From positions 1 through 64,000 of the forward strand of contig JASEFA010000001.1 of assembly GCA_030019365.1 (NCBI GenBank): a stretch of 64,000 nt of DNA, given 5' to 3'. Position 1 is the stretch's first letter, and each line of letters opens with the position of its first letter. Of the stretch, positions 35,816-39,311 are shown in pieces. The position numbers and the translations under genes were made by a program. This DNA comes from Bacillota bacterium (GTDB lineage: Bacteria; Bacillota; Sulfobacillia; JACIYH01). Under the pieces are notes generated by a model. It was not told the DNA's origin and did not search any database. It saw nothing but the letters and a program-made list of their open reading frames with translations.

Positions 35816-35867
35816 CAAAGCTGCGTTTGCGCCGCCGAAATCGCGGTGGTCCTGCGAAGAATATAAG
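35816..35867 (+). promoter_or_regulatory. Candidate promoter(s) upstream of the riboswitch
   Basis: Two weak options precede the riboswitch: CAAA-N14-GCCGAAAT (35816-35841), resembling a motility-type sigma-D/sigma-28 site with one base less spacing, and TATAAG (35862-35867), a -10-like hexamer without a matching -35. Neither is proven. Confidence 0.28.
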
Positions 35868-35880
35868 GGGACCAGCTATT

Positions 35881-35972
35881 AGCCCCCAAAAAAGGCAAAC
35901 CCGGCGAAAGCCGGGGGCGCAAAGCTACGGGGCCTAAGGCGTAATGCTATGGCAGCCCGGCCGCTGGGGGAT
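35881..35972 (+). promoter_or_regulatory. Cyclic di-GMP-I (GEMM) riboswitch
   Basis: The aptamer core is plain: GGCAAACCCGGCGAAAGCC forms the P2 hairpin with a GAAA tetraloop, then GCGCAAAGCTACGG, GGCCTAAGG and CTATGGCAGCCCGG give the junction and P3 with its tetraloop receptor. A P1 helix can form between CCCCC (35883-35887) and GGGGG (35966-35970). The G aligned with the ligand-contacting G20 of the Vc2 RNA appears retained, favouring c-di-GMP over cyclic AMP-GMP. A terminator-like hairpin follows, then the gene at 36124. Confidence 0.93.
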
Positions 35973-35986
35973 CTTGTGATTCCCTA

Positions 35987-36039
35987 CCGGCCTGCTGGCT
36001 GCCGCTGGGAGGTGGTTGGCAGGTCGGTTCTCTTGTTCT
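35987..36039 (+). terminator. Riboswitch expression platform (intrinsic terminator)
   Basis: CCGGCCTGC (35987-35995) pairs with GCAGGTCGG (36019-36027) over 9 bp with one G-U, followed by TTCTCTTGTTCT. It starts 15 nt after the aptamer and ends about 85 nt before the regulated gene, suiting transcriptional control. Confidence 0.65.
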
Positions 36040-36123
36040 GAGCAGTTGGCCAGGCTTCCCAACCCAAGCCCCTCTCCATGGGCGGGAGTGGGGGCCAGTT
36101 CGATCCGGGAAGGAGTGAGGAGG

Positions 36124-37248
36124 ATGAACAAGCGAGCTCGGGGGTTCCTGGTCCTGTTGCTGGTAGCCGTTTTCCTGCTCGGGGCGGTGCACACGGCGCT
36201 GGCAACCGGAGACGAGCCGGTGGTTGGGTCGGGTGGCGAGCAGAGCCCCGGGACCGCCGGCGCCGACGCAACGCTGGCATCCGGCGAGGACGAGCACGAG
36301 GACGATGACGCAACGCTGGCATCCGGTGAAGACGAGCAGGAGGACGAGGGGAGTGACTCCGCGTCTCTTGCGGCCGAGCCCGGCGACGAAGAAGAGGAAT
36401 TCCGCTTGCAGGTCGAAGCAAATTTGGAACAGGCGGTGGCCTCGGACGAGGAGAGCGAAGACGAGCCTGACGAGCCTGATGCGGGAACGCCGGCGGGTCT
36501 TGCGAAGCGAATAGCAAAGCTGGAGCAGCAGCGAGATCAGAAACCTGAAGATGCCCGGATACTATGGAAGTTGGCTATGGCATACAGGGCGGCGGGCGAG
36601 TACGACAAAGCCATATCGGTGCTTAAGGACATGAAGAACCTGCCCGGTTCCGGCGCCAAGGTAGCCGTCATGCTGGCCCTGTGCCTGCGGGCCACAGGTG
36701 ACGCACAAGCCGCTCTGACCGAGCTAGAGAGCCTGGACTCTACGGTTCCGGGGGCAGTGTATGCCTACCGGGCGATCCTGAAGGATCAGGTGGGCGAGGT
36801 CGAGGAAGCACTCGAGGACATGGAGGACGCGGTCGCTGCCGAGCCGGAGCAGGACGGCATGTACGCCAAGCTCGGTGAGCTCTACGAGAAGACGGGCCGG
36901 CACGGTGTCAAGGTCTTCGTGAAGGGCAAGAAAGTTCCGTTTGACGTTGAGCCCTTCATAACGCCCCAGGGTAGGACCATGGTACCCTTGCGGGCCATTG
37001 TCGAGTCGCTGGGCGCGGACGTGAAGTGGGATGGCGAGCTGCGGCTGGTGACTGTGGCCAAGGGGGATGTCACCGTCGTGCTGCCCGTGGGCTCGCTACG
37101 GGCCATGGTAAACGGCACGGAGGTCGCGCTCGACGTGCCGGCCGTAATCGTGGGGGACAGAACCATGGTACCTGTCCGCTTTCTGTCCGAGAGCCTCGGG
37201 GCTAAGGTGGGATGGTTCACGCAGGGACAGGTTGTGTCGGTCAACTGA
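36124..37248 (+). CDS. Secreted acidic-repeat, TPR and copper-amine-oxidase-N-domain protein
   Basis: The 374-residue product has a Sec signal peptide (cleavage near HTALA-TG, residue 27), a very acidic low-complexity segment (about 28-125) containing two 14-residue repeats beginning DATLASGEDE, a helical TPR-like region (about 130-245, AMAYRAAGEYDKAISVLKDM) and a C-terminal copper-amine-oxidase-like domain (about 258-374, MVPLRAIVESLGADVKWDG then MVPVRFLSESLGAKVGW). ATG 36124 follows GAGTGAGGAGG. It is the gene behind the c-di-GMP riboswitch, so surface or extracellular function tied to c-di-GMP is inferred. Confidence 0.85.
   Translation: MNKRARGFLVLLLVAVFLLGAVHTALATGDEPVVGSGGEQSPGTAGADATLASGEDEHEDDDATLASGEDEQEDEGSDSASLAAEPGDEEEEFRLQVEANLEQAVASDEESEDEPDEPDAGTPAGLAKRIAKLEQQRDQKPEDARILWKLAMAYRAAGEYDKAISVLKDMKNLPGSGAKVAVMLALCLRATGDAQAALTELESLDSTVPGAVYAYRAILKDQVGEVEEALEDMEDAVAAEPEQDGMYAKLGELYEKTGRHGVKVFVKGKKVPFDVEPFITPQGRTMVPLRAIVESLGADVKWDGELRLVTVAKGDVTVVLPVGSLRAMVNGTEVALDVPAVIVGDRTMVPVRFLSESLGAKVGWFTQGQVVSVN
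36265..36348 (+). repeat. Two tandem 42-bp coding repeats
   Basis: Units at 36265-36306 and 36307-36348 each begin GACGCAACGCTGGCATCCGG and encode DATLASGEDE plus four acidic-rich residues. They differ at only a few positions, implying recent duplication. Confidence 0.85.
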
Positions 37249-37272
37249 GCGTATGGCCGTGGAGCATCGACC

Positions 37273-37304
37273 GGGTCCGGGGCATCGTTGCCCCGGACCC
37301 TTCC
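37273..37304 (+). terminator. Strong terminator-like hairpin before sigI
   Basis: A perfect 12-bp stem (GGGTCCGGGGCA / TGCCCCGGACCC) with a TCGT tetraloop lies 25 nt after the stop of the secreted-protein gene. It is followed by TTCC only, so read-through into sigI is possible. Confidence 0.7.
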
Positions 37305-37371
37305 GCTCTGGCAATGCCTTCTCGATCTAATCATAGAGCTACAGCCACTACCTGTGAAGGGATGTGTGAGG

Positions 37372-38109
37372 GTGAATCCCGGCCCCGACCACCTCGTAGC
37401 GCGCGCCCAGGCCGGGGATGCGTGCGCCCGGGAAACCCTCTTGCGGGATTACCAGCCCTTGGCGCTGCGCCTGGCGGCACAGGTGCGAGGGAGGTTCGTA
37501 ACGGAATCCAGCGACGACGCGTCGGTAACCCTGGTCGCCTTCAACGAAGCGATCGACAGCTACCGGCCGGATCGCGGGGCCGGCTTCCTCAGTTTCTGCG
37601 AGACCGTGATCAGGCGCCGGCTGATTGACCACTACCGGCGCCAGTCCCGGCAAGCCCGGGAGATCCCGCTTTCGGCTCTGGAGCAGGACGACGACGAGGG
37701 GAACAGTTACTCACCGCAGCAGATGCAAGCATCCCAAGCCGCGCACCAGGCCTACGTGGAGGCCTGGGAGAGGCGGGAAGAGATGGCCCGCTTCGAGGCC
37801 AGGCTGAGGCAGATCGGACTTGGCCTGGGGGAACTGGTTCGAGTGTCTCCCAGGCACCAGGACAGCCGGCAGCGCGCGCAACGGGTGGCCCGCTATCTGG
37901 CCGAGCACAGGGAGCTGGCCAGGCAAGCACTGGCTCAGCGCAGGCTGCCGGTCCGTGAACTCGAGAAGGCGCTGGGGTTGGGACGTGACATGCTGCAGCG
38001 CAATCGCAAGTACATCCTGGCTCTGACCCTCGTTCTGACTGAGGAATTTCCTTACCTGCAGGACTACCTGCGCCCGCGATCACCCTCGCTGAAGGGGATG
38101 GCGAAGTGA
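37372..38109 (+). CDS. sigI: RNA polymerase sigma-I factor
   Basis: The 245-residue protein matches the SigI family: a sigma region 2-like N-terminal half with VTLVAFNEAIDSYRPDRGAG and FLSFCETVIRRRLIDHYRR, then a distinct C-terminal DNA-binding domain (VSPRHQDSRQRAQ, LPVRELEKALGLGRDMLQRN). GTG 37372 or 37366 may start it, with AAGGGA upstream. It overlaps rsgI by 4 nt (GTGA). In Clostridia SigI factors answer to envelope-spanning RsgI sensors of extracellular polysaccharide or heat. Confidence 0.92.
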   Translation: MNPGPDHLVARAQAGDACARETLLRDYQPLALRLAAQVRGRFVTESSDDASVTLVAFNEAIDSYRPDRGAGFLSFCETVIRRRLIDHYRRQSRQAREIPLSALEQDDDEGNSYSPQQMQASQAAHQAYVEAWERREEMARFEARLRQIGLGLGELVRVSPRHQDSRQRAQRVARYLAEHRELARQALAQRRLPVRELEKALGLGRDMLQRNRKYILALTLVLTEEFPYLQDYLRPRSPSLKGMAK

Positions 38110-39311
38110 AACAGGGAACCGTGCTGAAGATACAGGGGAAGAGGGCCATCGTGCTCACGCCCGACGGCGAGTTCCTCCGTACCCCCACTGGCCGGGAAGG
38201 CTGGTGGCCGGGGCAGGAAGTAACCTGGCCGGACCGGGAGCCGCGGGCCTGCTTGCGCCCGGCCGTGGCCCTGGCCTGCGTGCTGGTTCTCCTTGTGGCC
38301 TGGAGCGGGTTGGCGTACCGCCACTGGCGGGGACTGGGCCCGGTGGTGGCTTACGTGTCGGTGGACATCAACCCCAGCCTGGAACTGGGCGTAGACGCCC
38401 GCGAGAGAGTGTGCAGCGCCTGGGCGTTCAATCCTGACGGGGAAAGGCTGCTGGCGGGATTGGCGTACCGGCGCCGGAGCCTGCTGAAGACGCTCTCCGA
38501 TCTCACCCTCCGCGCCGTGGAGCAGGGTTATCTCGGCGGGGACCGTCCGGGGGCGGTGCTGGTTGCGGTCGTGCCTGCCGAAACGACAGCAGGGGTAGAT
38601 CCTGCCCGGTTGCGCGAGGAAGCCGTAACTACCGCTCGCCTGGTGCTCGAGCAACGGGGTCTCAAAGTCGATGTCAAAGGATGGACTGCCGACCGGCAGG
38701 TCCACGAGGAGGCCAGGCGTCACCACATCTCGGCCGGGCGGATGGCCCTCTATCTGGCGGCTCGTCGCGCCGGGGCGGAAGTCACCCTGGAACAGGTCTG
38801 CCGGGAACCGATATCCCACGTGCTGAGCCTGGTCACGGAGCGTGCCGGCCAGAGAGAGCAGGGCATACGGGAGTCCGCCCGGGGTGAAGGCCGGCACGGG
38901 GAAGGTGATCGATCCCCGGCCGTGCCGGGCAACAAGCCGGACTCACCGGCCGGGCAGAAGACGCGCTCGAAGCACGGGCCGAGTCCTTCTGGAGGAAAGC
39001 CCGGCCCCGGCTCGGATGAAGGCGCACCCGCTCTGGAGAGCGGCCCTGGCACGGCTTCCCCGCCGCCGGAGCAGGCAACCGAGGAACCACCGGCTGACGA
39101 AGACGAGAGCGGCGCTCAGGGTACCCAACCACCCCCGTACCCGGAAACGCAACCGGACGACGACGGTCAGACGGGAGTCTGCCCGGACGGGACATCCCAG
39201 GAGCAGACCGAGGAGCAGACCGAGGAGCAGACCGAGGAGCAGGCCGAGGAGCCGCCCCATTCCATGAATGACCCGCTGCCGCCGGAAAGCGGCGAGGGGC
39301 ACGGCAGGTAG
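38106..39311 (+). CDS. rsgI: RsgI-type anti-sigma factor, membrane-spanning
   Basis: The 401-residue protein has the RsgI N-terminal sigma-binding domain (residues 1-45, GTVLKIQGKRAIVLTPDGEF), one membrane helix (about 50-71) and the conserved extracytoplasmic region starting VVAYVSVDINPSLELGVD. The C-terminal 130 residues are Pro/Glu/Gly-rich with EEQT repeats instead of a carbohydrate-binding module. GTG 38106 overlaps the sigI stop. It should hold SigI at the membrane until signalled; the ligand is not evident. Confidence 0.92.
   Translation: MKQGTVLKIQGKRAIVLTPDGEFLRTPTGREGWWPGQEVTWPDREPRACLRPAVALACVLVLLVAWSGLAYRHWRGLGPVVAYVSVDINPSLELGVDARERVCSAWAFNPDGERLLAGLAYRRRSLLKTLSDLTLRAVEQGYLGGDRPGAVLVAVVPAETTAGVDPARLREEAVTTARLVLEQRGLKVDVKGWTADRQVHEEARRHHISAGRMALYLAARRAGAEVTLEQVCREPISHVLSLVTERAGQREQGIRESARGEGRHGEGDRSPAVPGNKPDSPAGQKTRSKHGPSPSGGKPGPGSDEGAPALESGPGTASPPPEQATEEPPADEDESGAQGTQPPPYPETQPDDDGQTGVCPDGTSQEQTEEQTEEQTEEQAEEPPHSMNDPLPPESGEGHGR
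39201..39248 (+). repeat. Four tandem 12-bp coding repeats in rsgI
   Basis: The unit GAGCAGACCGAG occurs four times (last copy with one substitution), encoding repeated EQTE. It lies in the low-complexity tail of RsgI and is a likely site of length variation. Confidence 0.85.

Follow-up and report, generated by a model that had tools for sequence, protein, structure and literature searches.

A class I c-di-GMP riboswitch predicted to act as OFF switch of a secreted TPR-stalk protein in a member of the Sulfobacillia

Background

The 64,000-nt stretch of DNA analysed here (the window; contig JASEFA010000001.1, positions 1–64,000, of a Bacillota bacterium affiliating with the Sulfobacillia) harbours a putative riboswitch upstream of a gene for a protein composed of tetratricopeptide repeats (TPRs) and a stalk domain. 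This locus raises the questions of which ligand the leader responds to, whether the ligand turns the gene on or off and what kind of protein is controlled in this way. The reading favoured here, at a probability of roughly 70 %, is that a class I c-di-GMP riboswitch, once ligand is bound, turns off transcription of a single gene, that of a secreted TPR-stalk protein; this protein would be an exported scaffold of the motile (low-c-di-GMP) state.

Results and discussion

Aptamer and expression platform

An initial annotation had proposed a GEMM-I aptamer followed by a terminator-type platform, and both were recovered (Table 1). The full-length aptamer matches RF01051 with 70.8 bits (E 7.7e-14 in a search of one genome; gathering cut-off 35). 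In the 64-kb window it is the site of the one RNA family, c-di-GMP-I-GGC, that Rfam reports at gathering score. Downstream of it, an 18-bp terminator-like hairpin (−31.5 kcal/mol, z −4.05, equalled by 0 of 200 shuffles) is followed by UCUCUUGUUC. The antiterminator hairpin, formed from the aptamer 3′ strand and the terminator 5′ arm, reaches −41.0 kcal/mol (z −4.65) and was likewise equalled by none of 200 shuffles. By computation, the two hairpins have one strand in common and are mutually exclusive, and both folds are possible in the ortholog of the relative G001 and in the G000 paralog. All of the 11 outer terminator pairs, counted directly on the three sequences, pair in window, ortholog and paralog, two of them with changes on both sides and three with a change on one side; as judged from this comparison, compensatory changes preserve the terminator stem in ortholog and paralog.

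Table 1 Features of the locus (positions refer to the window)
Feature	Position	Strand	Basis
Possible promoter, stretch resembling AAATCGCGGTGGTCCTGCGAAgAATA	35840–35880		common to window, ortholog and paralog
c-di-GMP-I (GEMM-I) aptamer	35885–35969	+	cmscan, RF01051 genome search, alignment with relatives and Vc2
Aptamer position G20	35894	+	alignment numbered on Vc2
P2 GAAA tetraloop	35906–35909	+	
Aptamer position A47	35921	+	alignment numbered on Vc2
Aptamer position C92	35964	+	alignment numbered on Vc2
Predicted antiterminator hairpin	35947–36008	+	fold energy, shuffles, equivalents in ortholog and paralog
Predicted intrinsic terminator hairpin	35986–36028	+	fold energy, shuffles, pair changes in ortholog and paralog
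U-tract	36029–36038		
Target gene (374 aa; signal peptide, acidic linker, TPR solenoid, Cu_amine_oxidN1 stalk domain)	36124–37248	+	Pfam, AlphaFold2, Foldseek
42-bp tandem duplication (acidic repeat DATLASGEDE(H/Q)ED(D/E))	36265–36348	+	read from sequence
Hairpin 3′ of the target gene	37273–37300	+	z −4.77 for 37255–37315; also in G001
sigI-rsgI genes	37372–39311		

The platform is thus coupled to the aptamer by computation, and since the aptamer is compatible with the terminator and not with the antiterminator, ligand binding should favour termination. At low c-di-GMP, the aptamer 3′ strand would pair with the terminator 5′ arm, the antiterminator would form and the gene would be transcribed. 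With c-di-GMP bound, this strand would be held by P1 and P3, allowing the terminator to form and transcription to end upstream of the start codon. The same strand logic has been published for the Cd1 OFF switch of Clostridioides difficile (PMC9262584), and class I switches of this organism were tested to be OFF switches (PMC6200980). Overall, a transcriptional OFF design is well supported.

Several observations count against this explanation. For an intrinsic terminator, the U-tract is weak, and no sigma-70-like promoter was found on the + strand at this locus. The computed energies alone do not decide, as the best fold varies with the stretch folded and ligand and tertiary contacts lie outside the model. 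Moreover, in C. difficile the output of one class I locus increased with c-di-GMP (PMC6200980). Window, ortholog and paralog (L070, L071) have in common a stretch like AAATCGCGGTGGTCCTGCGAAgAATA 5′ of the aptamer, which is possibly a promoter outside the sigma-70 consensus.

An ON switch, by which c-di-GMP would boost the target as an adhesion or matrix component, is rather unlikely. Class I switches of either sign are known, pilM being an ON switch for cGAMP (PMC9262584), surface proteins are common among c-di-GMP targets, and the weak U-tract would allow for another platform; against this stands the terminator that is compatible with the aptamer, next to an antiterminator that draws on an aptamer strand. 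The initial suggestion of a new c-di-GMP-controlled envelope or matrix component is accordingly weakened insofar as it implied promotion by c-di-GMP. Judged by its anatomy, the leader should be an OFF switch; the target would then belong with the flagellar operons, made at low c-di-GMP, and is better seen as a motile-state product.

Aptamer-associated genes in the genome and its relatives

The genome (2.94 Mb, 27 contigs) contains five aptamer loci detected with RF03167 (c-di-GMP-I-GGC), and the identical five were detected with RF01051. They precede flgB, a flgF/G-type gene, an operon of a pilin and a GspF-like gene, the target gene and its paralog; the genes at the four loci other than that of the window were named by eye from their translations. 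The paralog (57 % protein identity to the target; 86 % for the G001 ortholog) has the same domain architecture and its own aptamer. The leaders of the pilin and flgB genes (L001, L002) have a near-identical platform, in which the aptamer is followed by GCTTCCGCACCGGCGGAAGCATTTT and which gives the impression of a copy. Under the OFF reading, the target would be made alongside flagella in the low-c-di-GMP state.

Aptamers of the c-di-GMP-I type were detected in 58 of 61 genomes, comprising this one and its relatives. A rough survey, in which the automatic choice of the downstream gene sometimes picks the wrong frame, yielded many flagellar genes as well as pilins, sigma factors and secreted proteins. 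Tandem arrangements also occur: a pair of aptamers lies ahead of flgB at L139 (G003:C56), and G019:C69 and G012:C16 each carry two aptamers within ~300 nt.

Outside the genus, two of nine TPR-stalk loci have an upstream aptamer (G019, 77.7 bits; G028, 47.2 bits), while the other seven lack one even at permissive settings, which counts against the proposed explanation. With ~200 aptamers per ~155 Mb, the chance of an aptamer on the same strand within 400 nt is ~3e-4 per gene, and by our own arithmetic two of nine would be expected by chance at ~2e-6. By these sequence matches, the pairing of aptamer and TPR-stalk gene recurs in three families of the class, and chance neighbourhood is therefore unlikely. 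The platform of G028 comprises a terminator-like hairpin and a U-run ~120 nt past the aptamer. At G019, 43 nt separate aptamer and start codon, and a hairpin encloses the Shine-Dalgarno sequence; this different, translational-looking platform counts against the OFF-terminator explanation. A search of the genome contigs for related loci returned distant stalk-domain relatives only.

Downstream sigI-rsgI genes

Genes for a SigI-type sigma factor and an RsgI-type anti-sigma factor, overlapping head to tail, are located directly downstream of the target gene. That the riboswitch chiefly serves this pair via read-through from the TPR-stalk gene agrees with the order of aptamer, TPR-stalk gene, sigI and rsgI, which is kept in G001, but is made improbable by the strong intervening hairpin, also present in G001. 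This hairpin is probably the terminator of the target gene, which is probably monocistronic. Furthermore, the genes of the paralog, G019 and G028 are linked to aptamers without need of sigI (neighbours checked for the paralog only).

Ligand class

In cmscan, the aptamer spans the full RF03167 model with 68.3 bits (E 4.8e-14), above the gathering cut-off of 59, and scores fewer bits than with the ordinary family RF01051. An alignment was compiled from the aptamers of the window, the ortholog, the paralog, three other loci of the same genome and one G019 locus, plus Vc2; its numbering of G20, A47 and C92 rests on the Vc2 sequence. These three ligand-contacting positions are invariant across the seven aligned aptamers. 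The printed consensus of RF03167 has a G where all of them have A47, and the GGC variant is disfavoured on this account, with G47 as its diagnostic being our interpretation of the variant name and the printed consensus. The cGAMP (GEMM-Ib) type is disfavoured as well, as it carries A20 (for the role of G20A in cGAMP-type riboswitches, see PMC6274999). Between c-di-GMP and cyclic AMP-GMP, both of which the initial annotation had considered, the retained G20 favours c-di-GMP. Retention of G20, A47 and C92 therefore argues against both types, and ordinary c-di-GMP is the predicted ligand. The genome encodes four GGDEF, one EAL and two PilZ domains, and c-di-GMP is therefore probably made by the host. 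The RF03167 model ranking first by cmscan E-value speaks for cGAMP, or for whatever ligand the GGC variant class may have, as the true effector; given G20, A47, the higher RF01051 score and the GGDEF, EAL and PilZ proteins, this is very improbable. The GGC variant takes this first rank despite the deviating position 47 and the higher bit score of the parent family, and loci of this kind may be mislabelled by annotation pipelines.

Target protein

The target had been described as a secreted protein with acidic repeats, TPRs and an amine-oxidase-like domain. A predicted signal peptide (MNKRARGFLVLLLVAVFLLGAVHTALA, read by eye), the acidic linker, the TPRs (PF14559, E 1.5e-10) and Cu_amine_oxidN1 (PF07833, E 5.7e-38; 129.6 bits versus a curated cut-off of 24.2) bear this out; the amine-oxidase part is confined to the N1 stalk domain. 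The G001 ortholog carries only once the 42-bp unit that is duplicated in the window. In an AlphaFold2 model built on 8 aligned relatives (mean pLDDT 79.6), residues 22–85 are disordered, 123–257 form helical hairpins and 263–373 a beta domain corresponding to the stalk. Foldseek matched the model to TPR proteins (consensus TPR, MamA) and to E. coli amine oxidase (72 columns, 35 % identity). The sequence match to the enzyme covers residues 286–356 only and falls within the N-terminal domain of the enzyme. No Pfam match to the catalytic domain of copper amine oxidases was obtained in the target, and such an activity was ruled out on the grounds that the non-catalytic N1 stalk domain alone is present.

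The protein would be exported by Sec and looks like a secreted scaffold: TPR solenoid and stalk domain would most likely provide a protein-binding scaffold outside the membrane. Within 36009–36123, GGAGGTG lies in the terminator loop, as it does in all three leaders, and the in-frame TTG 36016 opens a 410-aa frame in the window. It is highly implausible that this GGAGGTG is the ribosome site of a longer protein starting at TTG 36016 and controlled by the hairpin at the level of translation, since the extension is out of frame in the paralog, and since a separate ribosome site serves ATG 36124, from which a proper signal peptide is read.

The domain mix, initially regarded as unusual, is indeed present; it is not unique to this protein and defines a small family of the bacterial class, several members of which have a similar riboswitch. 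Firmicutes PF07833 proteins share the C-terminal domain by sequence and fold, whereas the target combines this stalk with an acidic linker and a TPR solenoid; of the PF07833 proteins found in the class, most possess neither such a TPR match nor an aptamer. The magnetosome protein MamA has a TPR solenoid like that of the target in fold and, with a match of 8e-15 that stays below the curated cut-off, in sequence. This likeness is a general TPR one; MamA lacks the stalk domain and is cytoplasmic.

Comparison with known riboswitches

Cd1, located before the flagellar operon of C. difficile (PMC9262584, PMC6200980), resembles the window in its class I aptamer, the 3′ strand of which forms the antiterminator; it is a transcriptional OFF switch, as predicted for the window. 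The two differ in sequence, organism and target, here a secreted TPR-stalk protein, and activity in the window is a prediction. Bc1 of Bacillus thuringiensis, located before cbpA (PMC11218506, PMC7423583), is likewise a class I c-di-GMP switch of a Firmicute ahead of a secreted surface protein, but its long platform contains two terminators, and cbpA encodes a collagen-binding adhesin. Among the open-licence literature, no c-di-GMP riboswitch with a copper-amine-oxidase-domain target was found, which is a weak sign of novelty.

Conclusions

The riboswitch itself is canonical and routine; a modest new lead comes from its repeated use on a protein family that is uncharacterised. Tentatively, secreted TPR-stalk proteins may be an unrecognised c-di-GMP output in this class of Firmicutes, having come under class I riboswitch control more than once and by differing platforms, with a terminator in this genus and in G028 but sequestration of the Shine-Dalgarno sequence in G019. 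They may serve the envelope of the motile state, e.g., as a scaffold outside the cytoplasm on which pili or flagella are assembled. A secreted family without assigned role would thereby gain a testable one, the predicted riboswitch linking TPR-stalk proteins to the decision between motile and sessile life.
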